Positions 14,011-43,309 of a stretch of 44,037 nt of DNA are shown one piece after another. The stretch covers positions 1 to 44,037 of the forward strand of contig JAIUOT010000044.1 of the NCBI GenBank assembly GCA_020161015.1. Reading direction: 5' to 3'. Both the position numbers and the translations under genes were made by a program. The notes under the pieces are model-generated. The model worked only from the letters and a program-made list of their open reading frames with translations. It did not search any database and was not told the DNA's origin. Source of the stretch: Actinomycetota bacterium (GTDB taxonomy: Bacteria; Actinomycetota; Actinomycetes; Propionibacteriales; Propionibacteriaceae). Position 1 is the stretch's first letter, and each line of letters begins with the position of its first letter.

Positions 14011-14043
14011 TTAGGCCACGTCACCTAGAAAGGGAACTCACTG

Positions 14044-14727: not shown

Positions 14728-14728
14728 G

Positions 14729-15079
14729 ATGAGCAGGAAGACCTGGACCACCATCGCCCTCATTGCCGCGCTTGTCCTGATCTTCGGGATCAGCTTCGTT
14801 GTCGGTGGGCTTCACACCGACCCCTACGAACGCTTCGCCGGCACCGACTCGGTTGCCACCAGCACCATCCAGGAGTCCAACCCGGACTACCAGCCGTGGT
14901 TCGAGCCCTTCTTCCAGCCGGAATCCGGAGAAGTCGAGTCCGGACTGTTCGCACTGCAGGCGGCTCTCGGCGGCACCGTCCTCGGATTCGCCATCGGCGG
15001 ACTGTGGGGGCGTCGTCGCAGTGAACGGTCGCCCGCGACCGCTGAACCCAACGGGCCCGCTCCCGAGCCCGCGACCTGA
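14729..15079 (+). CDS. cbiN: Cobalt transport protein CbiN
   Basis: A 116-residue protein with a membrane segment at about residues 8-27, an extracytoplasmic stretch rich in acidic and aromatic residues (FAGTDS, YQPWFEPFF, PESGEVESGLFALQAALGG) and a second membrane segment at about 75-95. This is the standard CbiN plan; CbiN opens CbiM for cobalt loading. The start is 1 base after the cbiM stop and the stop overlaps cbiQ (TGATG). Confidence 0.93.
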   Translation: MSRKTWTTIALIAALVLIFGISFVVGGLHTDPYERFAGTDSVATSTIQESNPDYQPWFEPFFQPESGEVESGLFALQAALGGTVLGFAIGGLWGRRRSERSPATAEPNGPAPEPAT

Positions 15080-15837: not shown

Positions 15838-16670
15838 GCCACCGCCAACTCTCCGCCGAAGGTCTTGAGGTTGCCTTCGGGCACCGGCAAGTGCTCCGCG
15901 GCGCAGACCTCGAGATCCCGCGCGGACGGCGCCTCGCCCTGCTCGGCGCCAACGGCTCGGGCAAGACCACGCTGCTACGAACGCTGGCCGGGTCGGTCAA
16001 GCCGGGCCACGGCAACGTCCTGGTCGACGGCGCTGCCGTGGCGTTCGACCGGTCCGGCCTTCGGACGCACCGGCAGATCGTCCAGCTGGTCGCACAGAAC
16101 CCCGACGACCAGTTGTTCGCCGCCGATGTGTACCGCGACGTCTCCTTCGGTCCACTGAACCTCGGATTGAGCGAAGCCGAGGTACGACAGCGAGTGGCGC
16201 AGGCGCTGGCCGTTCTGTCCATCGAGGACCTCGCGGAGCGGCCGATCCACGAATTGTCCTACGGGCAGCGAAAGCGGGTCGCGATCGCCGGGGCATTGGC
16301 AATGCAGCCGTGCGTCATGCTGCTCGACGAGCCCACCGCCGGGCTCGACCCGCAAGGGGTGGACGAGATGGTCGCCGCCCTGCAGAGGCTGCTTGAAGCT
16401 CACACCACGGTGGTGATCTCCACCCACGAGGTCGACTTCGCCCTGTGGTGGGCCGACTCGGTCGCCGTGCTGGTGGACGGTCAGGTCCGCCACGGGTTAC
16501 CCGCTGATCTGCTGTCCGACGAGTCCCTCGTGGCGGCGGCCCGGCTCCGGCGACCGCTGGTGCTGCAGGCCGCCGCCGCGCTCGGTCTTCCCTCGGGATC
16601 AGTCACCGACGTGCCCGGACTCGTCGCCGCAGTGCGGGCGGCCGGGGACCTCGGCGAGGGCGCAGCCTGA
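15834..16670 (+). CDS. cbiO: Cobalt ECF transporter ATPase CbiO
   Basis: A 278-residue ABC ATPase: Walker A GANGSGKTT, Q-loop VAQNPDDQLF (the DDQLF variant is typical of ECF ATPases), signature LSYGQRKRVAIAGAL, Walker B MLLDEPTAGLD and switch STHEVD. It ends the cbiMNQO operon and converges with cobQ, leaving 35 bases without a clear terminator hairpin. Confidence 0.95.
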   Translation: MSHRQLSAEGLEVAFGHRQVLRGADLEIPRGRRLALLGANGSGKTTLLRTLAGSVKPGHGNVLVDGAAVAFDRSGLRTHRQIVQLVAQNPDDQLFAADVYRDVSFGPLNLGLSEAEVRQRVAQALAVLSIEDLAERPIHELSYGQRKRVAIAGALAMQPCVMLLDEPTAGLDPQGVDEMVAALQRLLEAHTTVVISTHEVDFALWWADSVAVLVDGQVRHGLPADLLSDESLVAAARLRRPLVLQAAAALGLPSGSVTDVPGLVAAVRAAGDLGEGAA

Positions 16671-16705
16671 CGACGATGATGGCGAGGTCCGGGATGCGTT
16701 GCAGC

Positions 16706-18145
16706 TCAGCTGCGAGCCAGTCGCAGCAGCGCATCCACATCGGCGTGCTGCTCCAGGGCGTCGGCCAGTTCGTCGAGCATCTGGGTGCGACGCTCGACGA
16801 AACCTGGGGCGTCCGGGACGGGCTGCCAGGCCGAGCCGACCGTGCCGGCCAGTTCGGTGAGCCAGGCGCGGCGGAAGCCGTCATTCTCGAACGCGCCGTG
16901 CCAGATCGTGCCCCAGGTGTTGCCGTCCCGCACCCCGTCGAGGAACGGCTCCCCTCCGGACGGCTCGACCACCCCGTGGTGGATCTCGTAGCCGGTCACC
17001 GTGTGCCCGCGCCAACTGCCGGACGGCTTTCCGAGGACCTTCTCGGCGTTGAACCGGACCGTCGCCGGCAGCAGGCCAAGCCCCGGCTCGGTGCCCAGGG
17101 CGGTTTCGATCGGGTCGTCGATCACCTCGGTCAGCATCTGGTACCCGCCGCAGATACCGAGGATCGGTCCACCGGTCGCAGCGCGGGCCGCCAGAGCCTC
17201 AGCGAGGCCGAGGCGGCGCATCCAGTCCAGGTCGGCCACGGTGCTGCGGCTCCCCGGCAGCACCACCAGGTCAGCGCTCGCGATGTCGGACGGGCTGGCA
17301 GTGGCGAACACGTCCAGGCCGGGCTCGGCGGCCAGGGCGTCCAGATCGGTGGCGTTCGAAATGCGCGGAAACCGGACCGCGGCGACCCGCAGCGTCCCGG
17401 CACGGCCGGGCAGGCGCGGCCACTTGGCGAAGGCCAGCGCGTCCTCGCTGTCCAGCCACACCTGGTCCAACCAGGGCACCACGCCCAGGCAGGGCAGGCC
17501 CGTGCGGGCGGTGAGCTCGACCAGCCCCGGGTCGAGGACCGACTGGTCGCCGCGGAACTTGTTGATCAGGTAGCCGGCCAGGGTGGCCCGGTCGTCGTCG
17601 TCGCCGATCGCCCAGTGACCGTAGATGGAGGCCAGCACCCCGCCTCTGTCGATGTCCCCGACCAGCACCACCGGCAGCCCGAACTCCCTGGCCAGACCGA
17701 AGTTCACGTAGTCACCGGTCCGCAGGTTGATCTCGGCCGGCGAGCCTGCGCCCTCCGCCACCACCAGGTCGTAGCTGGCCTCCAGCTGCCGGTAGGCGTC
17801 GAAGGCCGCCGCCGCGAGCCGGGCACGACCGTTGGTGTACTCGCCGGCCTCCAGGGTTCCCCCAGGCTGGCCGCCGAGCACGATGAATGCCCGGCGGTCC
17901 GTGGCGGGCTTGAGCAATACGGGGTTCAACAGTGCGGACGGCTCTACCCCGGCCGCCAGGGCCTGCAGGTACTGGGCGCGTCCGATCTCGGAACCGTCCG
18001 GGCAGACCATCGAGTTGTTGCTCATGTTCTGCGCCTTGAACGGCGCCACCCGCACGCCGCGCCGGGCGAACGCACGGCACAGCCCGGCGACGATCAGCGA
18101 CTTGCCGGCGTCCGACGAAGTGCCCGCCACCAGGATTCCTGCCAC
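16706..18145 (-). CDS. cobQ: Cobyric acid synthase CobQ/CbiP
   Basis: A 479-residue glutamine-dependent amidase that adds amides b, d, e and g to adenosylcobyrinic acid a,c-diamide. The N-terminal synthetase domain has AGTSSDAGKSLIVAGLC and FKAQNMSNNS; the glutaminase domain has LPGSRSTVADL and GICGGYQML with the nucleophile at Cys332 and GYEIHHG. The GTG at 18145 is chosen because GGGAGG lies 8 bases upstream and the family begins with this hydrophobic strand. It is divergent from the EamA remnant. Confidence 0.94.
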   Translation of the reverse strand: MAGILVAGTSSDAGKSLIVAGLCRAFARRGVRVAPFKAQNMSNNSMVCPDGSEIGRAQYLQALAAGVEPSALLNPVLLKPATDRRAFIVLGGQPGGTLEAGEYTNGRARLAAAAFDAYRQLEASYDLVVAEGAGSPAEINLRTGDYVNFGLAREFGLPVVLVGDIDRGGVLASIYGHWAIGDDDDRATLAGYLINKFRGDQSVLDPGLVELTARTGLPCLGVVPWLDQVWLDSEDALAFAKWPRLPGRAGTLRVAAVRFPRISNATDLDALAAEPGLDVFATASPSDIASADLVVLPGSRSTVADLDWMRRLGLAEALAARAATGGPILGICGGYQMLTEVIDDPIETALGTEPGLGLLPATVRFNAEKVLGKPSGSWRGHTVTGYEIHHGVVEPSGGEPFLDGVRDGNTWGTIWHGAFENDGFRRAWLTELAGTVGSAWQPVPDAPGFVERRTQMLDELADALEQHADVDALLRLARS

Positions 18146-18183
18146 CCGCGCATCCTCCCATGCCCGCCCGGCGGGGTGCGGCG

Positions 18184-18805
18184 ATGACCGGCGGCACTCG
18201 ATCCCGGAGCGGGGCTGCCGCCGGGCTTGCCGCCTCAGCGCTGTTCGGCGCCGGCACCCAGATCGCGAAAACTGCTGCTCGGCCACACCACCCCCTGGCT
18301 CCTCGCCGGCCTGCTCTACACCGCCTCCGGCCTGACGCTGTCGCTGTGGCGAATCGCGCGACGCTCCCCCAGAGTGCTGATTCCGCCCGCGGAGGTGGCG
18401 CCCCTGGCCGGCGCCGTGCTGTTCGGAGGTGTCCTCGCCCCGGTGTTGCTCATGCTGGGGCTGGTTGCGATGCCGGGCAGCGGCGCATCGCTGCTGCTCA
18501 ACGCCGAAGCGCTGTTCACCGCTCTAGTCGCCTGGCTGGTGTTCAGGGAGGCCACGAGTCGCAGGATCGTCATCGGTTTCGCGTTGATCGCCGCCGGCGC
18601 GGCGGTGCTCGGCTGGCCCGGGCAACCACAGTTCGCCGGCACCGGCCCCACCCTTGCCGTGCTTGGCGCCTGCCTGTGCTGGGGCATCGACAACAACCTC
18701 ACCCGCGCTGTGGCCCGCAACGACCCCGTCTGGCTGGCCGCGGTGAAGGGCGCCGTCGCCGGGCCGGTCAACCTCGCTCTCGCCTTCTTGCTGGCACCCC
18801 CGTCC
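18184..18805 (+). pseudogene. EamA/DMT-family transporter, frameshifted and truncated
   Basis: The segment starts at ATG 18184 as GLAASALFGAGTQIAK. One extra A in the run 18268-18271 breaks the frame; with three As it would continue KLLLGHTTPWLLAGL. In the shifted frame it then reads as five or six EamA membrane helices, including LLLNAEALFTALVAWLVFREAT and GACLCWGIDNNLTR. The protein stops being recognisable at about 18800, inside the sixth hydrophobic segment, where cobT sequence begins. It is a drug/metabolite-type permease remnant with both a small indel and a large 3' deletion. Confidence 0.82.
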
Positions 18806-29090: not shown

Positions 29091-29583
29091 CTCGACGCCG
29101 GTGTGCTGTTCCCGGCCCAGACCGCCGAGCTGACCGCGCACCGCGACCGGCTCAACCCCGCCGACACCGCCCCGCCGCAAAGCCAACTGACCCGCCCGGG
29201 CTCCGGAGAGGAGGCTTCGCGGGCGCCCCTGCATGAGGCACCTCTCGGCCCCGACCCGCCACCAACGACGCTGCTCGTGTCGTGCCTGCGCCGGGTCTGG
29301 CGGGTGTGGAGCTCAGTCGGCCTCGAAGCCCCCGCTGAGCAGCGTCAGGGTTGTGATCACGCCGCCGGCGACGGCGCCACGCAGTGCGCGGGGAACGGCG
29401 ATTCCCGCTCTTCCGGCACCCCGCCGGGCAAGGTCCCGGCGACCCCATGTCCGAATAGCGACCGGACCTGGTTCTCCGTGGGCCCGAGCCTGGGTCGCCC
29501 GCAACGCCCGAGCGGAGGGCCGCCCGGACCCGGCCGACGTCCCGGCGGCCCCACCGTCGCCCGAGACTGCCATTCAGGAGGAG
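29091..29583. other. Gene-poor stretch between the hexosaminidase and the IS256 remnant
   Basis: No frame here gives a recognisable protein on either strand. It is very GC-rich, and its 3' part presumably includes the missing left end and N-terminal transposase codons of the IS256-type element. Confidence 0.4.
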
Positions 29584-30700
29584 ATGACCGATCACCTGGG
29601 CTACGGCAAGCACGCTGTGGAGGGCCGTAACGGCGGGAACTCCGGTAACGGGACGCGTGCCAAGACGGTGGTCACCGACAACTGTGGCGAGGTCGAGATC
29701 AGTGTGCCGAGAGATCGCCAGGGCAGCTTCGAAACCCAGCTGGTCGGTAAGCGTCAGCGCCGGCTCTCGGATGTGGACACGTTGGTGATCAGCCTGTTCG
29801 CGAAGGGCCTGACGACCGGGGAGATCAGCGCGCATCCGGCTGAGGTGTCCGGCGCGTCGGTGAGCAAGGACACGATCAGCCGGATCACCGACAAGATCGT
29901 CGAGGAGATGAACACCTGGTGGGCCCGGCCGTTGGAGTCGATCTACGCGGCGATCTTCATCGACGCCATCGTGGTCAAGGTGCGGGACGGGCAGGTCGCC
30001 AACCAGCCGTTCTACGCTGCGCTCGGGGTCGATCTGGACGGTCACAAGGACATTCTCGGAATCTGGCCCGGGCAGGGTGGCGGGGAATCGGCCAAGTACT
30101 GGCTGGCCGTACTCACCGACCAGGAAGAACCGCGGCGTCACCGACGTGTTCTTCCTGGTCTGTGACGGATTGAAGGGGCTGCCCGACAGCGTCACCGCGG
30201 TGTTCCCGCGGACCACGGTTCAGACCTGCATCATCCACCTGATCCGCAACACCTTCCGCTACGCCTCCCGGAAGTACTGGGACCAGATCAGCCACGACCT
30301 GAAGCCGGTGTACACCGCCCCGGCCGGGACGCGGCCGAGCACGAACTGGACGTGTTCCTGGACAAGTGGGGCCGGCCCTACCCGGCGATCGTCGGGCTGT
30401 GGCGTAACGCCTGGGAAGAGTTCACCCCGTTCCTGGCCTATACGCGACGTCGAGATCCGCCGGGTCCTGTGTTCCACCAACGCGATCGAGAGCCTGAACG
30501 CCCGCTACCGGCGCGCGGTCCGGGCCCGGGTCCACTTCCCCAGCGAGCAGGCCGCGATGAAGACCCGGTACCTGGTCACCCGATCACTGGACCCCAAAGG
30601 CACCGGTCAGACACGATGGGCTGTGCGGTGGAAGCCAGCCCTCAACGCCTTCGCCGTCACCTTCGCCGACCGCATGCCCGCGGCCACGAAGAACCGCTAA
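29584..30700 (+). pseudogene. IS256-family transposase, multiply frameshifted
   Basis: The protein is a mutator-type IS256 transposase. Visible are EEMTDHLGYGKHA, RLSDVDTLVISLFAKGLTTGEI, then FIDAIVVKVRDGQ (first catalytic Asp), FFLVCDGLKGLPDSV (second Asp), CIIHLIRNTFRYASRKYW and CSTNAIESLNARYRRA (catalytic Glu). These lie in different frames, with shifts at about 30121-30124, 30323 and 30442, and the first 60 or so residues are missing. The product cannot be active. Confidence 0.9.
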
Positions 30701-30953: not shown

Positions 30954-32120
30954 GTGGATGCCGTCAGGAATCCCTACGTGCCCGGGGCTGGCCGCAAGCC
31001 GTCAGCGCTCGTTGGACGCGATGCCGAGCTGGCTGCCTGGTCGGTTGCCCTCCAGAGATGCGAGCGGGGGATCACTGACCAGCCGCTGGTCTTGTTCGGT
31101 CTGCGCGGTGTCGGCAAGACGGTGCTGTTGACGCAGTTACGCCACGACGCCCAAGCCCGCAACTGGCTCGTGGTTCAGGTAGAGGCGGGCGCCGGCCGAA
31201 GTCTCCGAGAGCTGCTGGGCGAAGGGCTCTATGAGCCGCTGTCCGACATCGCGAAACCATCCGCTGGCCAGAGGCTACTCAGGGCGCTCCGAACCGCGGT
31301 CTCCTTCAAGGCCTCCTACGATGCCGCAGGCACTTGGACGTTTGGGCTCGATCTGGCCGACGCCTCCGGAGGTGGTGCCGACAGCGGGATCCTTGAGACC
31401 GACCTGAAGCGGATCATCAAGGATGTTGCACTCGCAGCCGGCGAATCCCACGTCGGGCTGGCCGTCCTGATCGATGAGGCTCAGGATCTCTCCAGCGATG
31501 AACTCACCACACTCGCGGTCGTCGCCCAGAGCGCGGCCCAAGACAATTGGCCGGTCCTCTTCGCGATGGCCGGCCTCCCGAGGCTTCCGCAGACGTTGGC
31601 GGAGGCCAAGTCGTACACCGAGCGATTCCAGTTCAGCCACATCGAACGTCTGTCAACCGAGGACGCCAAGGCAGCCATCCTCCGCCCAGCCGATGCGGAG
31701 GGCGTGAGTTGGGCGCCAGATGCACTGGAACTCGTCGTCAACAGCTCTGGCCGGTACCCCTACTTCATCCAGCAGTTTGGTCAAGAGGCCTGGAACGTTG
31801 CGACTGGGTCTCAGATCGAACAGCCCGATGCCCGATTGGGGGTCGCCTTGGGTCAGAACAAGCTCGACTCGGGGTTCTTCCGATCGAGGTGGGACCGGAC
31901 CACGGCGGCAGAGAAGAAGTATCTGCGCGCGATGTGTCCGGAAGGCGACATCGGTGTCGGCTCCGGGGAGGTAGCAAATCGCCTTCGGAAGACGATCAAC
32001 GCCCTTGGCCCTGTCCGAGCCAATCTTATCCACAAGGGTCTCGTGTACGCCCCCGACCACGGGATCATTGCCTTCACCGTTCCCGGCATGACCGAGTTCA
32101 TCGGAAGACAGCCGGAATAG
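30954..32120 (+). CDS. AAA ATPase of the Cdc6/Orc1-like type, function unknown
   Basis: A 388-residue ATP-binding protein. It has RDAELAAW, then Walker A LFGLRGVGKTVLL, Walker B AVLIDEAQDLSSDE and a sensor-like segment FAMAGLPRLPQTL, followed by a helical lid and a C-terminal region that looks like a winged helix (ANLIHKGLVYAPDHGIIAFTVPGM). This layout is common in stand-alone actinobacterial ATPases related to archaeal Cdc6 and to STAND proteins. The GTG at 30954 has AGGAG 5 bases upstream. Lying between an IS remnant and an attachment-like block, with lower GC than its neighbours, it looks like mobile-element cargo. Confidence 0.75.
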   Translation: MDAVRNPYVPGAGRKPSALVGRDAELAAWSVALQRCERGITDQPLVLFGLRGVGKTVLLTQLRHDAQARNWLVVQVEAGAGRSLRELLGEGLYEPLSDIAKPSAGQRLLRALRTAVSFKASYDAAGTWTFGLDLADASGGGADSGILETDLKRIIKDVALAAGESHVGLAVLIDEAQDLSSDELTTLAVVAQSAAQDNWPVLFAMAGLPRLPQTLAEAKSYTERFQFSHIERLSTEDAKAAILRPADAEGVSWAPDALELVVNSSGRYPYFIQQFGQEAWNVATGSQIEQPDARLGVALGQNKLDSGFFRSRWDRTTAAEKKYLRAMCPEGDIGVGSGEVANRLRKTINALGPVRANLIHKGLVYAPDHGIIAFTVPGMTEFIGRQPE

Positions 32121-33103
32121 TCCCAGCACTCGAGAGCCTCTGATGAGCGCTGCGCGAGCTCAGTCTGACGTCGTCGCCGTACCGAACCTCGGAGAATCCT
32201 GCCCCACATCTGCCCCACGAGGCTCGGGTGGCGCCGCAGGAACTGCACATAACGCCTAGTGAGAGGCATATTCGATCGCGTCCCGTGGGAGGTTCAACTC
32301 TTCTCTCGCGCACCGTAAGGTGCTTCTGGCTAGGGCAAACACGAAATCGCGAGTCCTCTCTCGTGACCGTTGTTGACCAGACCCGAATCTCTCTGGCTAG
32401 GGCTTTCGCTCGGCGTGGTGGGGCAGTCTCGGGTCAGGTGAGCCCTCTCGTAGCCACTCCTGCCCCACGGAAATGGTTCGGCAAAACCGCCTTTGACTAG
32501 GTGCGGAAGGTGGTCGGACGTCCCCGGTAAGGGCCGCCCTGCCCCACGGCGAACTGAAGAATGGCACGCCTCCTGGCTGGGGTGGAGCCTGGCAGATCAG
32601 ACCAGTGCTTGTTCGACTTGGTGGGGGCGCGACGAGGGTGATCGTCCGCGGACACATGGTGATCATCCGCACCAAAGAGCCAGAGGAGGCACGCCAAGAG
32701 GACGTCCCATTCCATCCTTCCGCCTTCTCATTGCAGCGGACAACCGCGGACACCACACACCTTCTAGGGGTGATGCCGTCGTTGCTGGATCAGCGTGGAG
32801 GCGCACCGCCTGCGAGAGCGAGCATGAGGCCGAGACTGGCGAGAAGCCCGGTCCGCCACAGCGTGAGCAAGGGCGGTCTCGAAGGCGACCCGGTCGAGGG
32901 GTACTCGAGCATCTTGGTCATGGAGTTGACGACGGTCGGTGTGGTGGTTCGTCTGAGTAGCTCGAAGGCGGCCTCGAACCCGTCGGTTTCCGCGCTGCTG
33001 GTGAGCGCGCCCGGGACGAGTATTCACCCCGGCATCTCTTTTCCACGCCCACTGTCGCCGTGCTAGCTTCAGCGGTGATGCCGGTCCGGTGACAGGGGTG
33101 GGA
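32121..33103. other. Gene-free stretch holding attachment-like block A
   Basis: About 980 bases with no convincing gene. The left part (32200-32550) holds the repeat block described separately. On the minus strand, 32868-33010 reads TDGFEAAFELLRRTTTPTVV and then NSMTKMLEYP, with one frame change a short plausible protein piece that I cannot identify. Short ORFs starting MPL on the minus strand are by-products of the repeats. Confidence 0.5.
32200..32340 (+). repeat. Attachment-site-like block A (homologous to block B)
   Basis: Two TGCCCCAC boxes (32200, 32211) are followed 87 bases after the first by a 27-base core at 32287-32313, then by AGGGCAAAC at 32332. The core reads like the T arm and 3' acceptor strand of a tRNA: T-loop TTCAACT and acceptor CTCGCGC plus A. 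More boxes lie to the right at 32418 (reverse), 32461 and 32540. A small hairpin GCCT-N6-AGGC lies before the core. Compared with block B the core differs by one base in 27. Confidence 0.7.
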
Positions 33104-33935: not shown

Positions 33936-34952
33936 ATGTTCAACATCGACCCCCAGCACCACTTCGACACCCAGCGTCTCGCCGTCGCTCAGTCCGCCGC
34001 GATCCGCCGAACCGCCGCCACCGAGGTCGCCCGAGGACTCGACAACGTCTTCTTCGCCAGTGCGGGCGGGGTCGCGTTGCTCACCTACCCGGCGGCCAGG
34101 CTGCTGCAGCAGCGCTCGTCGCTCCCGGTCTTCATCGAACGCGCGGCAGAACTCGCCGCCACGGAGAACGCGAACCTCGGGCCGCGGTCGCTGGTCGTGC
34201 TCTGCTCGGTCTCGGGCACCACCAAGGAAGCGGTCGCGATGATGAAGGCGGCGCAGGCCAGGGGCGCCCACGTGCTGACCTTCACCGGCACGCCCGAAAC
34301 GCCGCTGGCCACCTTGTCGGACATCAACATTGCCACTCCGGCGGCAGACGACACCTCCAGCGAGACCTACCTGATCCAGACCCTCGTGCTGGCCCTGGCG
34401 CTGATGGAGGCGCGCGGTGAGTTTTCCGGGCTGGACGAGATCCTCACTGATCTGGCGTTGCTGCCGTCGGCGCTGGTTGCGGCGAAGCAGGAGTTCGAGC
34501 CGCGGGCCCAGGAGTTGGCCGCGGCCCTGGTCGGCCGGGACCGCCCGCTGATGTTCACCGGGGCCGGCGGCGCCTGGTACGAGGCCTGGTACTTCGCGAT
34601 GTGCATCCTGGAGGAGATGCAGTGGATCTGGACGCGCCCGATCCATGCCTCGGACTTCTTCCACGGCACCTTCGAGCTCGTGGAGAAGGACGTGGCGGTG
34701 GTGCTGCTCACCGGCGAGGACGCGAGTCGTCCGCTGGCCGAGAGGGTGAAGGCTTTCGTGCCGGGAACCGGCGGCGATCTCTTCGTCATCGATACCGCGG
34801 AGTTTGAGTTGGCCGGAATCGGAGCGACCACCCGCGCCCTGGTCTCGCCGGTCGTCCTGGCGACGGTGCTGGAGCGGCTGAGCGTGCATGTGGAGGCACT
34901 GACCGGGCATCCGCTGACCACCCGCCGGTACTACAAGCGGATGGAGTACTGA
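33936..34952 (+). CDS. SIS-domain sugar isomerase/deglycase, FrlB-like (paralogue 1)
   Basis: A 338-residue protein with two SIS folds, as in fructosamine-6-phosphate deglycases such as FrlB. The first SIS domain has SVSGTTKEAVAMMKAA; the second has FTGAGGAWYEAWYFAM, MQWIWTRPIHASDFFHGTFELVEKD and LLTGEDASRPLAERV, and the chain ends RRYYKRMEY, close to the FrlB ending as I recall it. In FrlB the second-domain motif is SGEFRHGP; here Asp240 replaces the glutamate while His243 is kept. The expected reaction splits a 6-phosphorylated Amadori adduct into glucose 6-phosphate and an amine. The ATG at 33936 has AAGAGGAG upstream. It forms its own transcript behind the GntR-type operator. Confidence 0.82.
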   Translation: MFNIDPQHHFDTQRLAVAQSAAIRRTAATEVARGLDNVFFASAGGVALLTYPAARLLQQRSSLPVFIERAAELAATENANLGPRSLVVLCSVSGTTKEAVAMMKAAQARGAHVLTFTGTPETPLATLSDINIATPAADDTSSETYLIQTLVLALALMEARGEFSGLDEILTDLALLPSALVAAKQEFEPRAQELAAALVGRDRPLMFTGAGGAWYEAWYFAMCILEEMQWIWTRPIHASDFFHGTFELVEKDVAVVLLTGEDASRPLAERVKAFVPGTGGDLFVIDTAEFELAGIGATTRALVSPVVLATVLERLSVHVEALTGHPLTTRRYYKRMEY

Positions 34953-34966
34953 GCGCACTGCCGGGA

Positions 34967-34992
34967 GGCGGGATCGCTGCGGCGATCCCGCC
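34967..34992. terminator. Bidirectional terminator hairpin between convergent genes
   Basis: Perfect 11-base arms (34967-34977 and 34982-34992) with loop TGCG lie in the 43-base gap between the ends of the SIS gene and the convergent lacI gene, placed to stop both transcripts. Confidence 0.75.
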
Positions 34993-34995
34993 GAC

Positions 34996-36066
34996 TCAGC
35001 CCGTCCGGGTGAGATCGCGAATCGAGCCGCGCTCGATCCAGGTGGTGGGGAGGACGTGCGTCTGGCGGGGGGCGTCGGGAGCATGGATGCGGTGCAGCAG
35101 GGCCTGCGCGGCACAGGTGCCGAGGTCGTAGGCGGGCTGGGCGATGACCGACAGCGGCGGGCGCACCACCGTCGTCCACTCGGTGTCGTCGAAGCCGAAG
35201 ATCGACACCTGGTCGGGTACCACCAGGTCGCAGCCGTACACGGCGTCGATGATGCCCAGGGTGAAGCTGTCGTCAAGCCCGAAGACCGCTGTCGGCCGGT
35301 CGGCGCTGTTGAGCATCCCCGCGACGGCCGTCCGTACCTCGGATCGGCCGTGTGCCGGGGGGGTGTAGGCCGACGGCACGGTGAGCCCGGCTTCGGCCAT
35401 CGCGTCCCGGTAGCCCTGGTGCCGCTCGAGCATCGACGAGATGAGGTTGGCGTGCCCGTCATGGCCCCTGGTTCGCTGGAGTGGCGCCGCGATCCGGGTG
35501 TGCCCGATCGCGATGACACGCTTCACGGCCTGGTAGCCGGACTCGTAGTTGTTGACCACAACGACATCGGTGTCGAGACCGGGCACGAACCGGTCGACCT
35601 GGACCAGGGCCTGGCCATGGTCGACCGCGGATGCGAGGTGCTCGCTCGCCTCTTCGCTCGCGGGCGCCACCAGGATGCCGTCCACCCGCTTCTCGGTGAG
35701 CACCTTCAGCCCGTGGATCTCGGAGTCGACGGTCTCGTCGGTGTTGACCAGGACGACGTCGTAGCCCGCACTGCGGGCGCCGTCGGTGAAACCGCGGATC
35801 ACCCGGGCGAAGAAGGGGTTTGAGACGTCGGCGATCAATGCGCCCAGCGTCATGGTCTGTCCGGTCACCATCGAGCGGGCCACGGAGTTCACCGAGTAGC
35901 CAAGCTTCGCCGCTGCCGCCTCCACCCGACGCCGGGCCTCCTCGCTCACCGAGCCGTAGCCGCCGAGGGCGCGTGCCGCGGTGGCTCGAGACACGCCGGC
36001 TTCTCGGGCGACGTCGAAGATCGAGCTTCCCTGGGCGGGGACAGATGCTTGCACGACGGGCAGCAT
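34996..36066 (-). CDS. LacI-family transcriptional regulator
   Basis: A 356-residue LacI-family protein: helix-turn-helix SIFDVAREAGVSRATAARAL with hinge region LGYSVNSVARSMVTG, then a sensor domain with LGALIADVSNPFFARVIRGF, VDGILVAPASEEA and GLDDSFTLGIIDAVYG. The frame is open to 36192, but the ATG at 36066 gives a normal-length N-terminus, and the longer version would cross the operators. It is divergent from the second SIS gene and likely represses that operon through the palindromes at 36143-36182. Confidence 0.91.
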   Translation of the reverse strand: MLPVVQASVPAQGSSIFDVAREAGVSRATAARALGGYGSVSEEARRRVEAAAAKLGYSVNSVARSMVTGQTMTLGALIADVSNPFFARVIRGFTDGARSAGYDVVLVNTDETVDSEIHGLKVLTEKRVDGILVAPASEEASEHLASAVDHGQALVQVDRFVPGLDTDVVVVNNYESGYQAVKRVIAIGHTRIAAPLQRTRGHDGHANLISSMLERHQGYRDAMAEAGLTVPSAYTPPAHGRSEVRTAVAGMLNSADRPTAVFGLDDSFTLGIIDAVYGCDLVVPDQVSIFGFDDTEWTTVVRPPLSVIAQPAYDLGTCAAQALLHRIHAPDAPRQTHVLPTTWIERGSIRDLTRTG

Positions 36067-36142
36067 AACCGAGGATCGTGGGCCCGCGACATCACGTTCT
36101 TGAAACAAATTGGCGAACGGTGTTGACATCTGGCCTGCGCGA

Positions 36143-36182
36143 GTGAGAACGTGCTCAACAGAGGGATTGAGCACGTGCTCAA
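36143..36182 (+). promoter_or_regulatory. Tandem LacI-type operators upstream of the second SIS operon
   Basis: TTGAGCACGTGCTCAA (36167-36182) is a perfect 16-base palindrome with the central CG of LacI sites. A second copy, GTGAGAACGTGCTCAA (36143-36158), matches 14 of 16 bases, 24 bases upstream. The upstream copy falls where the -10 of a promoter with TTGACA at 36123-36128 would lie. The divergent LacI gene is the obvious binding partner. Confidence 0.85.
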
Positions 36183-36305
36183 ATCCGAGCATGAAGCCAG
36201 TAATGCGGCCAGCGTGGGTCGCGATGGGTTGACCGTTGCCTGCCGTACGAAGTTGTGCCCGGGTACCTCTACGTCTGCATGAACAGAAAAGGAGTCACTC
36301 AAGTC

Positions 36306-37307
36306 ATGGCCGTCGAAACGTTGCCGCTGTCGCCGATCGAGGCAGACCTCGAAGCCAATCTCGAGAAGACTGTCGGTTACTACGACAGTGTCCGAGAGTT
36401 TGTGGACGAGTGTGTCCGCAACGGTCTGAAGAACGTCTACCTCGTGGGGGCCGGTGGCTCGCTGATCGCGTCATTCCCCGCCTTCTACCTGTTGCACCGC
36501 ATGGTCGACATCCCGGTGTTCCAGATCCAGAGCGACGAGCTCAACTACGGTCGCCCGCGTCCCCTCGGGCCCGGTTCGCTTGTGATCATCGCCTCCTACA
36601 CCGGCACGACCAAGGAGACGGTGGCCGCCGCCCGGTACGCCAGGGAGGCCGGCGCGACCGTCTTCGCCGCGTGCCGTGCCCACAGCCCGCTCGCCGAAGC
36701 GGCCACCCTTGCCATCGAGGGAGGGTCGGACATTCTGGAGCTGATGGCCGCGTACGCACTGTGCGAGGCGCTCGGTGTCGAGCTCGACTATGCCGCCGTC
36801 CGGGCGGCGTTCGCCGCACTGCCTGCGGCATTCCGGGCTGCGGTGGAAGGCCAGGAGCAGCACGTGCACGACATCGCCGTCGCACTGAAGGACGAGCCGA
36901 TCACCTATGTGCTGGGTTCCGGCCCCTCCCACGGCTGGGCGTACGGGCTGGCGATGTGCTACTTGCAGGAGATGCAGTGGAAGCACGCCGTCTCGTTCAA
37001 CGCCGGCGAGTTCTTCCAGGGAGCCTTCGAGGTGGTCCAGGAAGACACTCCGGTCGTCCTGCTGCTGGGTGAGGACCCCTCGCGTCCGATCGCCGAGCGC
37101 GCGCAGCGCTTCCTCGACACCTACACCAAGCGGGCGCACTACCTGGACGTGCGTGACTTCGACCTGCCCGGCATGACCGCCGAGGGCCGGGCCATCGTCT
37201 CCCCGCTGATCCTGCCCAAGGTGATCGGGCGGCTCGCCAAGCACTACGAGGCGGTGCGCGGGCACAACCTCGACCAGCGGCGCTACATGTTCCGCACGAT
37301 CTACTGA
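36306..37307 (+). CDS. SIS-domain sugar isomerase/deglycase, FrlB-like (paralogue 2)
   Basis: A 333-residue double-SIS protein of the same family as paralogue 1. It has YLVGAGGSLIASFPAFYLL, IIASYTGTTKETVAAARYA, YVLGSGPSHGWAYGLAMCYLQEMQWKH, and SFNAGEFFQGAFEVVQED with Glu235 kept but Gln238 in place of the histidine; the end is HNLDQRRYMFRTIY. Its neighbour is an FrlD-like kinase, so the likely substrate is that kinase's 6-phosphate product. The ATG at 36306 has AAAAGGAG about 11 bases upstream; an in-frame ATG at 36279 lacks a ribosome site. It heads the operon with the kinase and ABC importer. Confidence 0.83.
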   Translation: MAVETLPLSPIEADLEANLEKTVGYYDSVREFVDECVRNGLKNVYLVGAGGSLIASFPAFYLLHRMVDIPVFQIQSDELNYGRPRPLGPGSLVIIASYTGTTKETVAAARYAREAGATVFAACRAHSPLAEAATLAIEGGSDILELMAAYALCEALGVELDYAAVRAAFAALPAAFRAAVEGQEQHVHDIAVALKDEPITYVLGSGPSHGWAYGLAMCYLQEMQWKHAVSFNAGEFFQGAFEVVQEDTPVVLLLGEDPSRPIAERAQRFLDTYTKRAHYLDVRDFDLPGMTAEGRAIVSPLILPKVIGRLAKHYEAVRGHNLDQRRYMFRTIY

Positions 37308-37326: not shown

Positions 37327-38163
37327 ATGAAGGTCGTAGCCATCGGTGACAATTGTCTCGACTGGTATCTGGATCGACAAATGGTGCATCCCGGCGGGAA
37401 CGCACTGAATGTGGCGGTCTATACTCATCGGCTCGGTGCGGAGTCCAGCTACATTGGGCAATTCGGCACCGACTGGGCAGGGGACGTGATGATCGCTGCC
37501 CTCGAGGCCGAAGGTGTCGATATCAGTCGAATTCGCCGAGCTGTCGGCACCAGCGGATATGCAACGATCGAGACCATTCGAGGCGACCGGGTCTTTCGGG
37601 GGTCCTCGAACGGAGTGGTCGCATTCACGCCGACTCCCGAGGACTACGCCTTCATGGCTGGCGCGGACGTCATACATACCGGCGACTCGTCGTTCCTCGA
37701 CGAACACGTGGCTGAGCTGGCCGCGATCGCACCGGTGAGCTTCGATTTCTCGATCAAGCCGCGCGACTACTGTGAACGGCTCCTGCCCCAGGTCACCTAC
37801 GCCACCTTCTCCCGTCCAGGGCTGTCCCCGGACGAGGTCAACGACCTGATCGGGTGGGCGCGGGACCTGGGCGCGTCCGAGGTCTTCGTGACCCAGGGCG
37901 AGGCCGGCTCCTACTCCTGGGCGGACGGTCGGCTCCACTACGAGCCGGCCTCCGCCGCATCGCAGATCGTCGACACCCTCGGCGCTGGCGACTCCTTCAT
38001 CGCTGGCATGCTCGTTGCGCGCCTCGCCGGCGCGCCCCTTGATGCGGCGGCAGCCCGCGCCAGTGCTCTCGCCGCACAGTCGTGCGGCACCCTGGGCGCC
38101 TTCGGCTACGCCGAACCGGCAGCCCGGATGACCGTGGCCTCCGACCATCGCTTCGCCTCCTAG
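37327..38163 (+). CDS. PfkB-family sugar kinase, fructoselysine 6-kinase (FrlD)-like
   Basis: A 278-residue ribokinase-fold enzyme. It opens VVAIGDNCLDWYLDRQ with GGNALNVAVYTHRLGA, very close to FrlD as I recall it, and ends with the PfkB signature DTLGAGDSFIAGML, where Asp222 is the catalytic base. It should use ATP to phosphorylate a fructosamine-type sugar at C-6 and feed it to the SIS deglycase encoded 19 bases upstream. Another ketose-amine derivative or plain fructose-like sugar is possible; the pairing with a SIS protein makes the Amadori assignment more likely. Confidence 0.8.
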   Translation: MKVVAIGDNCLDWYLDRQMVHPGGNALNVAVYTHRLGAESSYIGQFGTDWAGDVMIAALEAEGVDISRIRRAVGTSGYATIETIRGDRVFRGSSNGVVAFTPTPEDYAFMAGADVIHTGDSSFLDEHVAELAAIAPVSFDFSIKPRDYCERLLPQVTYATFSRPGLSPDEVNDLIGWARDLGASEVFVTQGEAGSYSWADGRLHYEPASAASQIVDTLGAGDSFIAGMLVARLAGAPLDAAAARASALAAQSCGTLGAFGYAEPAARMTVASDHRFAS

Positions 38164-38198: not shown

Positions 38199-39518
38199 GT
38201 GAAGAACAGATCCATCCTTGGCATCGTCGCCGTGATGGTCTTCGCGCTTGTCAGCGCAGGCTGTAGCGGCCCGACGCAATCCGGAAGTGCTGGTGCGACC
38301 AGCACAGGAGAACTGACGGGCAAGATCTCGTTCCTCGAGAAGTGGCCCGACCCGAAGTACAAGGTCTACTTCGACAAGGTGGTGGCCGACTACGTGGCCG
38401 CGCATCCCGGCGTCGAGATCGACCACCAGGCCGTGGGCGATCAGCCGATCAAGGACCAGCTCCGTGTGCTGACCAGCGCCAACGAGCTCCCCGACATCTA
38501 CTTCGCCTGGCCCGGCGACTTCGCGAACAAGTTCATCCGTGGCGGCTTCGCCGCGGATCTCACCCCGTACCTGGACGGCACTGACTGGGGGAAGAGTTTC
38601 GCCTCCTCCGCGTTGGGCGCCTACCAGTACGAGGGCAAGAACTACGGCATCCCGATCAACCTGAACGGGAAGGTGTTCGCCTACTCGACCGACGCGTTCA
38701 CGAAGGCGGGCGTCAGCGTCCCGACCAGCCTTGCGGAACTGAAGACCAGTTGCGGCGCGCTGTCGAAGGCCGGCTACACCCCGATCGCCTTCGGCAACCA
38801 GTACGGCTGGCCGGCCATCCACTACATCACCCAGTTCAACGCGCAGTTCGTCCCGGCCGATGTGCGGGCGAAGGATTACGCGCCGACGGGCGGCGACTTC
38901 ACCAACGCGGGCTACGAGCAGGCCCTGGCAGCGTTCAAGGACCTGATCGACACCTGTGCCAAGAAGGGGAGCAACGGCATCTCCCACGAGACGGCCCAGG
39001 CTGAACTCACCAACGGCAAGGCTGCCATGCAGTACCTGGAGGTGCTCGAGTTCGTCAACCTCGAGGACAAGAGCACGGTGCCCGCCGACTTCATCGGCAA
39101 GTGGGACCAGTTCGTGATGCCGCCGATCGACGGCGCCGCCGGCAACCAGACGGCGATCACCGGGGCGCCGGACGGCTTCCTGGTCAACGCCCAGTCCGAA
39201 CACCTCGATCTCGCGGTGGACTTCCTGAAGTTCCTCACCAGCAAGGAGAACGCGGCGGAGATGACCAAGGTGATCGGCTGGCCGAGCCCGATCGAGGGCG
39301 CCACCACGGCGGAGAACGCGTCTGCGGCCACGGTCAAGGCTGTCGGCGAGATCCAGCAGGCCAGCGAGCTGGCAATCTGGCTGGACACCATTGCCAGCGC
39401 GGAAGTGGCTCAGGCCTACTTGTCGGGTGTCGAGGGTTTGCTCAACGGTGACGAGACCCCCGCTTCGGTGATGGAGAAGGTTCGGACGGCGGCGGCCAAG
39501 GTCAAGGCTGAATCCTGA
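38199..39518 (+). CDS. ABC importer solute-binding lipoprotein of the second locus
   Basis: A 439-residue CUT1-type extracellular binding protein. The signal peptide ends in the lipobox SAGC, and the mature part contains LEKWPDPKYKVYFDKVVADY, LPDIYFAWPGDFANKF and GNQYGWPAIHYITQFNAQF. The GTG at 38199 has AAAGGAAAG upstream. The operon context makes a fructosamine or glycated compound the likely ligand; the sequence alone shows only a sugar-type fold. Confidence 0.88.
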   Translation: MKNRSILGIVAVMVFALVSAGCSGPTQSGSAGATSTGELTGKISFLEKWPDPKYKVYFDKVVADYVAAHPGVEIDHQAVGDQPIKDQLRVLTSANELPDIYFAWPGDFANKFIRGGFAADLTPYLDGTDWGKSFASSALGAYQYEGKNYGIPINLNGKVFAYSTDAFTKAGVSVPTSLAELKTSCGALSKAGYTPIAFGNQYGWPAIHYITQFNAQFVPADVRAKDYAPTGGDFTNAGYEQALAAFKDLIDTCAKKGSNGISHETAQAELTNGKAAMQYLEVLEFVNLEDKSTVPADFIGKWDQFVMPPIDGAAGNQTAITGAPDGFLVNAQSEHLDLAVDFLKFLTSKENAAEMTKVIGWPSPIEGATTAENASAATVKAVGEIQQASELAIWLDTIASAEVAQAYLSGVEGLLNGDETPASVMEKVRTAAAKVKAES

Positions 39519-39578: not shown

Positions 39579-39601
39579 CACAGGTCACAAAGAGAGGCGT
39601 G

Positions 39602-40486
39602 ATGAAGAGACAACTGGCGCGGCGGTCCGTCGGGTATCTGTGGATCCTGCCCGCACTCGTGCTGCTGCTCGTGTTCGTCTACTACCCCATCGTCGAGAAC
39701 TTCCGGCTCAGTCTGTACAGCTGGAACGCCTTCCGGCCGGTGCCGAAGTTCGTGGGGCTCAACAACTACCAGCGGGTCTTCGCCGACCCGGTCTTCTGGA
39801 CAGCGATCGTCAACAACGTCTGGTACGCGGTCGTTTCGGTCGCCTTCCAGGTCGGGATCGCCCTTGTCCTCGCGGCGCTGCTGGAGGGAGTGGTGGCGCC
39901 CCGGCTCCGGGGCGTCCTCCGTACGGTGTACTTCATTCCTGCGACGATCTCGATCACGATCGTCGGGCTGCTGTTCCGGATCATCTACCAGCCCGAAGGC
40001 CTCCTCAACGCCTTCCTGGCCCTGTTCGGCGTGGAGTCGACGCGCGCGTGGCTGGGGGAGCAGGAGACCGCCATCGGATCGGTGATCGCGATGAGCCAGT
40101 GGCAGAACCTCGGCTACACGACCATGCTCTTCGTGGTCGCCATCCAGCGCATTCCGAAGGAGTACTACGAAGCGGCCCTCGTCGACGGCGCCGGGGCGGT
40201 ACGCACCTTCTTCTCGGTCACGGTTCCGCTGGTTCGCGAGATGACGACCCTGTTGATGATCGTCACCATCTCGGGTGCCTTCCTGGTCTTCAACGAGATC
40301 ATGGCGACGACGCAGGGCGGACCGAACAACTCCAGCCAGGTCCTCGGCACGTGGCTGTACCAGTCGGCCTTCAAGAACGACGACATGGGCTACGCGACCG
40401 TGATCGCGGTCGTGATCTTCGTCTTCACCTTCACTGCCGCGGTGCTGCAGTTGGCCTACTCACGACTCCGGAGGGTTGAGCAATGA
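39602..40486 (+). CDS. ABC importer permease (MalF-type) of the second locus
   Basis: A 294-residue permease with six membrane helices, starting VGYLWILPALVLLLVFVYYPIVENF, and the EAA loop EYYEAALVDGAGAVRTFFSVTVPL. Both GTG 39599 and ATG 39602 fit the AGAGAGG ribosome site; I prefer ATG. It overlaps the next permease by 4 bases. Confidence 0.91.
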   Translation: MKRQLARRSVGYLWILPALVLLLVFVYYPIVENFRLSLYSWNAFRPVPKFVGLNNYQRVFADPVFWTAIVNNVWYAVVSVAFQVGIALVLAALLEGVVAPRLRGVLRTVYFIPATISITIVGLLFRIIYQPEGLLNAFLALFGVESTRAWLGEQETAIGSVIAMSQWQNLGYTTMLFVVAIQRIPKEYYEAALVDGAGAVRTFFSVTVPLVREMTTLLMIVTISGAFLVFNEIMATTQGGPNNSSQVLGTWLYQSAFKNDDMGYATVIAVVIFVFTFTAAVLQLAYSRLRRVEQ

Positions 40487-41364
40487 GTGTCACGAAGCTG
40501 TCGGTGGACGCAGTGGCGTCCCGGGAGGTGCGCGGGCGGCGGCGGTTCAGGATCACCCCGCTGCGGGTGCTCATCGGCGTCCTGCTCGCCGCCCTGGCCG
40601 TCGTCGTGCTCTATCCGCTGTTGTGGATGGCGATCTCCGGGTTCAAGACGAATGCCGAGCTGTTCGGTGATGCGTGGGGGCTGCCCGCACAGTGGCGGTT
40701 CAGCAACTACATCCAGGCCTGGGACTACGGCGTCGTCCACTACATCTTCAACTCGCTGGTCGTGACCGTTGGTTCGATCGTGCTGGTCACGCTCGTGTCG
40801 AGCTTCGCAGCCTTTGCCCTGGTCCAGGTCCGGATCCCGCTCGGCCAGCCGATCCTGATGCTGATCCTCGGTGGCCTGATGCTCTCGGAGACGGTGGCGC
40901 TCGTGCCGCTGTTCCGGATCATGCGCTCGCTCGACCTGTACAACACCCTGATCGGGATCATCATCCTCTACACCGCCTTCCGCATTCCGTTCACGACGTT
41001 CCTGATCCGGGCCTACATGATCGACCTGCCCACGGAGCTGCGGGACGCGGCGATCGTGGACGGTGCGTCGCTGTGGCAGATGTTCTGGCGGGTCACGTTG
41101 CCGCTGTGCTACCCGATCCTGATTTCCGCTGCGATCCTGCAGGCGCTGTTCTCGTGGAATGAGTTCGTCTTCGCCCTGGTCTTCATCAAGGACGACGCGC
41201 TCAAGACGATGCCGGTCGGCCTGATGGCCCTGCAGTCGAAACTCACCACCAACTGGCCGGTGGTGTTCGCCGGGTTGACCATCTCGGCGATCCCGATGGT
41301 GCTTGCGTTCCTGTTCGGCCAGCGGCACTTCGTCCGAGGGATCACTGAGGGTCTGGGCAAGTAA
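40483..41364 (+). CDS. ABC importer permease (MalG-type) of the second locus
   Basis: A 293-residue permease with the EAA loop ELRDAAIVDGASLWQMFWRVTLPL and the usual C-terminus FGQRHFVRGITEGLGK. The ATG overlaps the preceding stop. No ATPase gene follows, as in the other importer here and, from memory, in the frl operon of Bacillus, where a shared ATPase is used. Confidence 0.91.
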   Translation: MSVTKLSVDAVASREVRGRRRFRITPLRVLIGVLLAALAVVVLYPLLWMAISGFKTNAELFGDAWGLPAQWRFSNYIQAWDYGVVHYIFNSLVVTVGSIVLVTLVSSFAAFALVQVRIPLGQPILMLILGGLMLSETVALVPLFRIMRSLDLYNTLIGIIILYTAFRIPFTTFLIRAYMIDLPTELRDAAIVDGASLWQMFWRVTLPLCYPILISAAILQALFSWNEFVFALVFIKDDALKTMPVGLMALQSKLTTNWPVVFAGLTISAIPMVLAFLFGQRHFVRGITEGLGK

Positions 41365-41429: not shown

Positions 41430-42713
41430 ATGCGGTGGCTGCGTTCGTTCCTGAACTCGGACGTGCTGGTGGGCGAGCCACGCGACGTCGTCCTGATTGA
41501 GGCGGTGCTCGCCGCGTCCAAGCTCTCGATCCCCTTCCTCACCCTGTATCTGGTCGGAGCACGCGGCTTCGATTACGCCACCGCGGGCCTCTTCGTCGCC
41601 ATCCGGGGCCTGGGCGGTCTGGTCGCAGTGATGCTCGCCGGAGCGATCGCCGACCGCTTCGGCGAGAAGCCGGTCGTCCTGACGCTGCTCGCCGGGGCCG
41701 CCCTGAGCGCGGCGGCGATCCCGCACCTGCAGAGCACGCACGCCCTGTTGGTGGGGTTCTTCCTTCTCGGGGCCTTCGTGAATGCGGTGCAGCCCGCCTT
41801 CTCCTCGCTGGTCGTCCGAACGATCCCGGTGCGCCACTGGACGGAGATCTACGCCGCAGAGTACTGGGCGCTGAACGTCGGGTTCGCGTTCACCGCGCTG
41901 GTCGGCGGTCAGGTGGCGGTGTTCGCATTCGACTGGTTGTTCTATCTCGAAGCGTTGGGAACGTTCCTCGCCCTCGTCCTGGTTGCCCGGATCCTGCCGG
42001 CGACCCGTCCGCAGACCCGGACCCGGTCGCCCAGGCAGCGCGCCAGCCTGCGCGGCCGTGGCCGGCGCGCGCTGGCCACCGTGTCACTGGCGGCCCGGGA
42101 CCGGCTGGCCGTGGTGCTGATCAGTTCCAGCCTGCTGTTCGCGCTGTGCCTTTCCCAGATGACCGGCACCCTGCCGCTGGACATGGAGGCCAGCGGCTAC
42201 AGTCCGGACTTCTACGGCTACGTGATCTTCTGGAACGGCGCCCTCCTCACCATCTTCCAGATCCGGGCCGGACGTGCGATCGCCCGGCGCCGCGCGCTGC
42301 GGATCCTCGCCCGGGCCGCCGCGGTGGCAGGGCTCGGCTACGGTCTGCTGGCCCTGCCGCACCAGCACATCGCGCTGATTCTGGGCTGCCTCACGATCTG
42401 GACGGTCGGCGAGATGATGGACGCGCCGGTCCGCAGCGCCGTGGTGAGCGCGCTCGCGAAGCCCGGCTCCCGGGCACGCTATCTGGGGCTTCTGTCCGCC
42501 GCCCTCACCCTCGGCTACAGCATCGGCCCGTGGCTCGGCGGGTACGTGCTTCAGGTGGCCGGACGCGAGGCCCTGTGGCTGGGCACCGCCGGATGCGCAC
42601 TCCTGTGTGCGCTGATCCGCCGCGTCATCACGGGGCGGGTGGAGGCCCGGATCCTCACCGTCCCGAGCGAGCCGGACCGGCCGGGCTCGGGCCTCCCGTG
42701 CGGGAAGCGGTAG
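41430..42713 (+). CDS. Major facilitator superfamily transporter
   Basis: A 427-residue MFS protein with about 12 hydrophobic segments. Loop motifs are GAIADRFGEKP after the second helix and RAGRAIARRRALR in the second half. It resembles actinobacterial drug-efflux-type MFS proteins rather than sugar porters. It follows the importer by 65 bases on the same strand and may be the last gene of the operon; its role there is unknown. The ATG at 41430 lacks an obvious ribosome site. Confidence 0.8.
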   Translation: MRWLRSFLNSDVLVGEPRDVVLIEAVLAASKLSIPFLTLYLVGARGFDYATAGLFVAIRGLGGLVAVMLAGAIADRFGEKPVVLTLLAGAALSAAAIPHLQSTHALLVGFFLLGAFVNAVQPAFSSLVVRTIPVRHWTEIYAAEYWALNVGFAFTALVGGQVAVFAFDWLFYLEALGTFLALVLVARILPATRPQTRTRSPRQRASLRGRGRRALATVSLAARDRLAVVLISSSLLFALCLSQMTGTLPLDMEASGYSPDFYGYVIFWNGALLTIFQIRAGRAIARRRALRILARAAAVAGLGYGLLALPHQHIALILGCLTIWTVGEMMDAPVRSAVVSALAKPGSRARYLGLLSAALTLGYSIGPWLGGYVLQVAGREALWLGTAGCALLCALIRRVITGRVEARILTVPSEPDRPGSGLPCGKR

Positions 42714-43140: not shown

Positions 43141-43163
43141 TGCCCGGTGAAGTGGTCGGGGGC

Positions 43164-43309
43164 TGCCCCACATCTGCCCCACGAAGCTCGGAGAGGCGAG
43201 GGAGAACTGTGCATAATGCCTAGCCAAAGGCATGTTCAGTCGCGCTCCCCGGGAGGTTCAACTCCTCTCTCGCGCACTTATTGGTCATGTGCCCCTGACG
43301 AGGGCAAAC
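43164..43309 (+). repeat. Attachment-site-like block B (homologous to block A)
   Basis: Boxes TGCCCCAC at 43164 and 43175, then a 27-base core at 43251-43277 with T-loop TTCAACT and acceptor strand CTCGCGC, then AGGGCAAAC at 43301. Four more boxes follow at 43386, 43397, 43406 and 43417. The distance from first box to core is 87 bases, the same as in block A. A hairpin ATGCCT-N6-AGGCAT lies between box and core and pairs one step further than in block A. Confidence 0.7.

Follow-up and report, generated by a model that had tools for sequence, protein, structure and literature searches.

We analyzed a 44,037-nucleotide stretch of DNA from an Actinomycetota bacterium of the family Propionibacteriaceae (assembly GCA_020161015.1, contig JAIUOT010000044.1; the whole stretch is hereafter called the window), in which two genes, P1 and P2, encode FrlB-like SIS-domain enzymes. 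The reading that we favor, and to which we give about an even chance, is that both belong to a two-deglycase Amadori operon, in which P1 would be a canonical FrlB-type deglycase and P2 a variant that lacks the catalytic His, is probably active and would have another substrate range. The pathway, the substrate class and the activities of P1 and P2 are what we infer from residues, homology, synteny, conservation and constraint. In this pathway, an ATP-binding cassette (ABC) importer would take up an Amadori-type compound (a 1-amino-1-deoxy-fructose adduct of an amino acid), an FrlD-like kinase would phosphorylate its C6, and the two FrlB-like enzymes would cleave the phosphate into a hexose phosphate and an amino acid. 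P1 would, by homology, cleave through its Glu227/His243 pair, while P2 would most likely act on other or overlapping adducts with Glu222 as the base and no acid at position 238, the proton step of the His being left to water or to an amine or carboxylate of the substrate itself, or being unneeded.

An earlier note on the window had compared both proteins with the motif SGEFRHGP and proposed a complementary active-site pair, each paralogue lacking one of two catalytic residues. The motifs that it quoted are exact (A-S-D240-F-F-H243-G-T in P1 and A-G-E235-F-F-Q238-G-A in P2), but its choice of glutamate is not. The annotated fraB product of a Salmonella plasmid (325 aa) contains E214 inside EMQW, E227 inside SGEF, and H230, and these three columns hold E488, E501 and H504 in E. 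coli GlmS, whose numbering omits the Met; the EMQW Glu sits 16 residues ahead of the motif His in both proteins (E214/H230 and E488/H504). H230 of FraB presumably acts together with E214. Papers cited here and below are represented by excerpts, and in these the E214A variant of FraB is catalytically inactive (PMC12755824; PMC10100877), the GlmS residues for isomerisation are Glu488, His504 and Lys603 (PMC9272926), and FraB and FrlB have a conserved general acid and base in common (PMC9609667). Caution is therefore needed with the motif glutamate of SGEFxHG, which differs from the Glu found essential in FraB. Because the alignment gives E227, D240 and H243 for P1 and E222, E235 and Q238 for P2, P1 is complete, D240 being a separate, neighboring motif position, and P2 is short of the His alone. 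The complementary pair was thus rejected: the EMQW Glu is present in both proteins, and the alignment that the note had itself named as a check placed the catalytic Glu elsewhere. What stands is the absence of the motif His from P2, where Q238 occupies the column of FraB H230 and GlmS H504 and marks a conserved difference between the paralogues.

P1 and P2 are separate, intact SIS-domain proteins that share 38% identity over 323 columns (E 5e-53), and both have the two-SIS-domain fold of about 320-350 aa without a glutaminase domain; for P2, an in-frame GTG at 36255 is a possible alternative start. The phosphate loop SxxGxT is present in each (S91, G94 and T96 in P1; S97, G100 and T102 in P2). 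The six best matches among solved structures were all FrlB/FraB-type chains, and their E values spanned 6e-60 to 4e-28 (P1) and 7e-44 to 4e-31 (P2). A structure model of P1 built from 7 sequences, with a predicted local distance difference test (pLDDT) score of 84, gave as its best matches in the PDB 2a3n (template modelling (TM) score 0.91) and 8glr (TM 0.88), the entry title of the latter being "FrlB - Deglycase for 6-phosphofructose lysine". The P2 model was nearest to B. subtilis FrlB 3eua, then to 2a3n, 8glr and FraB (TM 0.76-0.84 to 3eua/2a3n). P1 and P2 alone were found in their own genome with the FrlB model at E 1e-10; with P2 as the query, the only other match was weak (33 bits) and lay in a 644-aa frame that is taken to be GlmS. 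P1 is named as a predicted canonical FrlB-type deglycase, while P2 is named FrlB-like rather than a canonical member because of Gln238 and of Gln in all 13 rows of its group (see below).

Conservation was assessed in an 80-row alignment (86 relatives found, 15 dropped, 9 references added), in which relatives are designated by locus (L) or genome (G) numbers. The 15 dropped rows comprised same-genome duplicates, copies of the window, fragments, a single near-identical row and two with 27-30% identity to P2; left out of the 80 rows were L104 (a third Agrobacterium Ti-plasmid relative, His), and L136, L138-L140 and L119 (His). Glu occupied the E214 column in 80/80 rows, although 24 of these loci came from a scan of named genomes with the patterns MCYLQEM and VFQIQSDE, and since MCYLQEM holds the catalytic Glu, a count of Glu conservation from that scan is biased; the His/Gln position is in neither pattern. 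The H230 column contained His in 62 rows, Gln in 17 and Pro in one, the Pro row (L068) being the last residues of a contig and assigned to neither state. The catalytic-type Glu was kept in 17/17 Gln rows. Three positions before the His, in the column of P1 Asp240, Glu was found in 48 rows and Asp in 32. Because all 32 Asp rows keep His (22/22 rows of the P1 clade and 10 others), Asp240 is an ordinary clade state and not the catalytic loss that had been suggested; P1-clade proteins with this Asp also occur in genomes where no Gln-type partner was found.

The 17 Gln rows belong either to the P2 group (13 rows from 13 genomes, Gln in 13/13) or to a Micrococcales group (L061-L064, Gln in 4/4), and on these counts chance or sequencing error was rejected as its source. 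The P2 group had an SH-aLRT support of 100 in a quick tree of the 80 rows, and in a careful tree of 41 of these rows the fork uniting its two parts (6 rows, 97/98; 7 rows, 83/79) was supported below 80; the support for L061-L064 was 100 in both trees. Both trees require two changes to Gln, and 0/200 bootstrap trees of the 41-row set show a single origin, while the approximately unbiased test leaves a single Gln clade unrejected (p 0.19 for 80 rows and p 0.23 for 41 rows). At 28 columns that are at least 93% conserved in the 62 His rows, window P2 deviates at Q238 only and P1 nowhere, and the SxxGxT loop letters are identical in 62/62 His and 17/17 Gln rows. Ratios of nonsynonymous to synonymous substitution (dN/dS) among the window, L033 and L046, given without a significance test, were 0.06-0.10 (P2), 0.11-0.15 (P1) and 0.11-0.17 (kinase); when L034 was one of the pair, the ratios were 0.23-0.29 for P2 and 0.28-0.35 for P1, at larger dS. 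Decay of P2 was rejected, given its 27 other intact near-invariant positions and low dN/dS. P2 is a maintained protein.

The second Gln group comprises Cryobacterium, Pseudarthrobacter, a Microbacteriaceae bacterium and Planctomonas (L061-L064), whose enzymes agree with the other 27 near-invariant positions at 26 and have Tyr at the remaining one, P2 position 320 (the assignment of the four Tyr rows to this group is a reading of counts). Its genes stand in loci of the soc type, which serve the catabolism of deoxyfructosyl amino acids and thus have Amadori substrates: a solute-binding protein and a transporter are 63-64% (4/4) and 69-76% (4/4) identical to Agrobacterium F2 genes with the annotation deoxyfructosyl amino acid transport, which we take to be soc genes, and a fructosyl amino acid oxidase is 54-55% identical to its F2 counterpart in 3/4, the L061 contig breaking off immediately ahead of its SIS gene. 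In L062, L063 and L064 (3/4), the gene next before the SIS gene encodes an FrlD-like kinase; the L063 kinase, the only one of these that was scored, reached 156 bits with the fructoselysine 6-kinase model NF007321. The His-type relatives L057 and L067 occupy the same kind of locus. Gln-type and His-type enzymes thus fill a similar place beside the kinase, which favors an active Gln-type enzyme and argues against a strict need for P1. In 3/4 of these genomes no P1 ortholog was found, so that strict dependence of every Gln-type enzyme on P1 was rejected; in the fourth (G540), a P1-like fragment of 180 residues was found along with a His-type relative that is more distant. Micrococcaceae and Microbacteriaceae are also reported to carry soc genes for Amadori opines (PMC8262997).

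Around P2, the recurring gene order is a divergent LacI gene, P2, in some loci P1, the kinase, a binding protein and two permeases, and this order was also found in a Propionicimonas assembly, Micropruina, Pedococcus, Ornithinimicrobium, Planosporangium and an Embleya megaplasmid. The kinase is a conserved neighbor, encoded at most 1 kb from P2, or from P1 just behind P2, in 13/13 P2-group genomes, and the best-scoring model for the window kinase was NF007321 (E 1e-52; 179 bits, under the cut-off of 247). P1 was detected in 12/13 P2-group genomes, on the same contig in 11; it lies directly after P2 in L036, L051, L052 and L072, upstream, accompanied by a GntR gene, in the window, L033 and L046, at a distance of 2-3 kb in L101, L054 and the genome of L071 and of about 9 kb in L034, and on another contig in the genome of L048. 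The genome in which P1 was not found (L049) is a 2.2 Mb assembly of unstated completeness. With the window's own genome removed, P1 occurred in 3/3 P2 genomes versus 3/143 others of a family sample (Fisher p 4e-5) and in 2/2 versus 6/391 of a class sample (Fisher p 4e-4), p values that are rough and too small because the genomes are related and the class search scored no more than five candidates in each. Five genomes that hold His-keeping P2 relatives (L055, L058, L059, L067 and L069) were searched, and none of the five gave a P1 ortholog, but a P1-clade gene stands beside a His-type P2 relative in L056 and in genome G200. A phylum sample searched at E 1e-60 gave 3 more genomes of 396 besides the window's own, with matches that are closest to P1 and have His. 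In a plasmid collection, 102 records match the two-gene stretch as DNA, of which the best-scoring, the Embleya record, covers 63%.

Several of these loci show features of their own. In L048 (3545-4368), the kinase match falls into two abutting pieces, perhaps a frameshift of the gene or the assembly. In L033 (2763-6349; G142, a close relative), another FrlB-like SIS gene, the third and one that keeps His, lies upstream of the two-SIS operon and adjoins ABC genes that are 34% and 53% like those for deoxyfructosyl amino acid transport in Agrobacterium F2. In the Chloroflexi loci L059 (4888-7014) and L069 (4911-7047), a pair of SIS genes stands in tandem; the first encodes a distant protein (27-30% to P2) and the second a P2-like one, both with His, and kinase and ABC genes come next.

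The company that P1 keeps with P2, together with its position directly behind P2 in four loci, is what would be expected if the two proteins formed a heterodimer with one complete site (P2 Glu222 and P1 His243) and one lame site (P1 Glu227 and P2 Gln238). In GlmS, the His of each active site is supplied by the partner subunit, and the P1:P2 dimer would have a complete site only if the partner chain supplies the His in the same way. FraB and FrlB, both described as homodimers in the excerpted source (PMC9609667), at least work as dimers. We nevertheless consider the heterodimer unlikely: P1-clade proteins were found without any Gln-type protein in 3 family-sample and 6 class-sample genomes, second-group Gln enzymes occur without a detected P1 ortholog in 3/4 genomes, P1 in the window follows a GntR gene and an inverted repeat of its own while P2 follows LacI, and the inter-subunit His is carried over from GlmS. 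A combined form, in which two actinobacterial groups swapped the deglycase His for Gln, one of them now an obligate P1:P2 heterodimer with a single mixed site and the other working alone, appears slightly less likely again; if true, the His would be dispensable for deglycase chemistry on some substrates, since the second Gln group would work alone. Of the three options that the earlier note had offered (a heteromer, different adducts, or one protein not being a deglycase), the evidence leans toward different adducts, because Gln-type enzymes occur without P1 in the second group and because P1 and P2 in the window stand beside different regulators and inverted repeats.

The presence of P1 in nearly all P2-group genomes would also suit a non-catalytic or sensory P2 whose role is to bind a phosphorylated Amadori compound and to modulate P1 or the regulators, as would the loss of an otherwise invariant catalytic His under low dN/dS, which fits a binding role. 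Such a role appears improbable to us, since the catalytic-type Glu, unnecessary for a pure binder, is retained throughout the Gln rows and the second group mostly has no detected P1 ortholog to modulate.

We also compared the favored two-deglycase operon with known systems. The nearest solved relative of P1 is Salmonella FrlB/GfrF (8glr and 2a3n, which we take to be GfrF), with 34-35% identity over the whole chain, the same fold and the Glu/His pair, whereas P1 has Asp at -3, P2 lacks the His, and the window has an ABC importer and a kinase but no phosphotransferase system (PTS). Salmonella FraB (PDB 9otj group; 9otu is E214A) likewise has the two-SIS fold and the EMQW Glu, with a gene of the fructoselysine-6-kinase type downstream as in the window; it is 21-26% identical to P1 and P2 in fold searches and has H230 where P2 has Gln. 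The B. subtilis frlBONMD-frlP locus (FrlB 3eua) resembles the window in its SIS deglycase, ABC binding protein, two permeases, kinase and nearby repressor gene, according to an excerpt (PMC12632257), and differs in having one SIS gene, with His kept, and the ATPase gene frlP, whereas the window contains a second SIS gene as well as a LacI regulator and an MFS gene. A Pfam scan of nine window proteins found no ABC ATPase among them, nor an oxidase or amino-acid-type importer as in soc-type loci. Salmonella gfrABCDEF shares with the window the presence of two SIS deglycases in one locus (PMC12675984, in part) but has a mannose-family PTS in place of the ABC importer and kinase genes, so that the window is not a Gfr-type two-deglycase locus.

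The gfr locus is also the model for another alternative, in which P2 would be a phosphosugar isomerase or lyase for an intermediate other than an Amadori compound, such as a glucoselysine-type 2-amino-aldose phosphate or the phosphate of an oxidised sugar, and the operon would be gfrE/gfrF-like with two chemistries. P1 being nearest to the Salmonella FrlB structure and P2 to B. subtilis FrlB is in keeping with this, but we know of no operon gene that marks a glucoselysine-type or oxidised-sugar substrate. In the excerpts, Salmonella gfr pairs deglycases for fructoselysine-6-phosphate and glucoselysine-6-phosphate (PMC12675984; PMC12735817), the text and a figure legend of one source assign the two substrates to GfrE and GfrF in conflicting ways (PMC12675984), and GfrF takes fructoselysine phosphate in Enterococcus faecium (PMC12735817). 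We hold this alternative to be quite improbable.

Several observations weigh against the two-deglycase operon with an active P2. With the FrlB equivalog model of NCBIfam (NF008481), P1 and P2 scored 78.5 and 93.6 bits, below the cut-off of 430, while E. coli FrlB scored 812 bits and FraB only 107 bits. The P2 structure model, built from 4 sequences, has a pLDDT of 72, falling below 50 at residues 205-243, around the active site. A change from His to Gln at a catalytic position could equally signal an inactive protein, and P1 in 12/13 P2-group genomes also fits a dependence of P2 on P1. The proposed substrate class is drawn from the homology of the kinase, of the SIS proteins and, in the second group only, of the soc-like genes; in those loci the SIS protein need not be the main enzyme, because the oxidase could carry the flux.

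Table 1. Positions of P1, P2, their active-site codons and the neighboring features in the window.
Feature	Position	Strand	Basis or comment
GntR/UTRA-family regulator, upstream of P1	33089..33832	+	Pfam GntR, UTRA
Inverted repeat GGACAAC-N7-GTTGTCC before P1	33900..33920	.	candidate GntR operator
P1, FrlB-type SIS enzyme (338 aa)	33936..34952	+	Pfam, PDB matches, residue alignment
P1 catalytic-type Glu227 codon (= FraB E214, GlmS E488)	34614..34616	+	residue alignment
P1 His243 codon CAC (= FraB H230, GlmS H504)	34662..34664	+	residue alignment
LacI-family regulator, between P1 and P2	34996..36192	-	Pfam LacI, Peripla_BP
16-base perfect palindrome TTGAGCACGTGCTCAA before P2	36167..36182	.	candidate LacI operator
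P2, FrlB-like SIS enzyme (333 aa), Glu222 kept, Gln238 replacing catalytic His	36306..37307 (from ATG)	+	Pfam, PDB matches, alignment
P2 catalytic-type Glu222 codon	36969..36971	+	residue alignment
P2 Gln238 codon CAG at His position	37017..37019	+	residue alignment
PfkB kinase, FrlD-like (fructoselysine 6-kinase type)	37327..38163	+	Pfam PfkB; NF007321
Sugar-type ABC solute-binding protein	38199..39518	+	Pfam SBP_bac_1
ABC permease	39599..40486	+	Pfam BPD_transp_1
ABC permease	40483..41364	+	Pfam BPD_transp_1
MFS transporter	41430..42713	+	Pfam MFS_1, synteny

The candidate operators are shared with some relatives. The GGACAAC-N7-GTTGTCC repeat occurs as a single copy in the window and is identical in L033, with only a partial form in L046, and a repeat of this type was not found before P1 in L034 or L054. 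The TTGAGCACGTGCTCAA palindrome likewise occurs once in the window and is identical in L033, with TGAGCACGTGCTCA in L046 and TTGAGAACGTTCTCAA-like sequences in L051, L054 and L101; none of its kind was found before P2 in L034 or L052. Because the helix-turn-helix of the LacI protein begins at residue 58, after 57 preceding residues, its true start is probably inside the frame, and with a downstream start the palindrome at 36167 would be intergenic. The MFS gene is retained at the end of the operon in L033, L034, L046 and L048.

Direct repeats at 32199-32313 and 43163-43277 (82% identical over 115 bases, spacing 10964) bracket the operon and its regulators, and a search of the genome at E 0.001 found these two long copies only, plus one 26-base match elsewhere. 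The G+C content is 0.64-0.65 in 5/7 2-kb windows from 30 kb onward, compared with 0.71-0.73 in 8/10 of the first 20 kb, and is likewise low at 20-24 kb. Given the flanking repeats and the G+C shift, the operon block may have come in as a unit. A split Mutator-family (IS256-like) transposase, probably frameshifted, lies in overlapping frames at 29233-30165 and 30077-30700, and an AAA_16 ATPase gene (30954-32120) lies between it and the left direct repeat. From its reading frames, we take the region 651-18286 to be a cobalamin biosynthesis and cobalt/nickel transport cluster.

Among the open-licence matches listed, which were represented by titles and abstract openings and mostly did not include subscription papers, no description of a His-to-Gln deglycase group or of such an operon was found. 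Food, soil and plant tissue contain Amadori compounds as nutrients, and FraB is under study as a drug target. A natural, conserved group that lacks the His at the position of FraB H230 and keeps the other near-invariant residues lets the role of this His be probed, and bears on whether Amadori cleavage can run without it.

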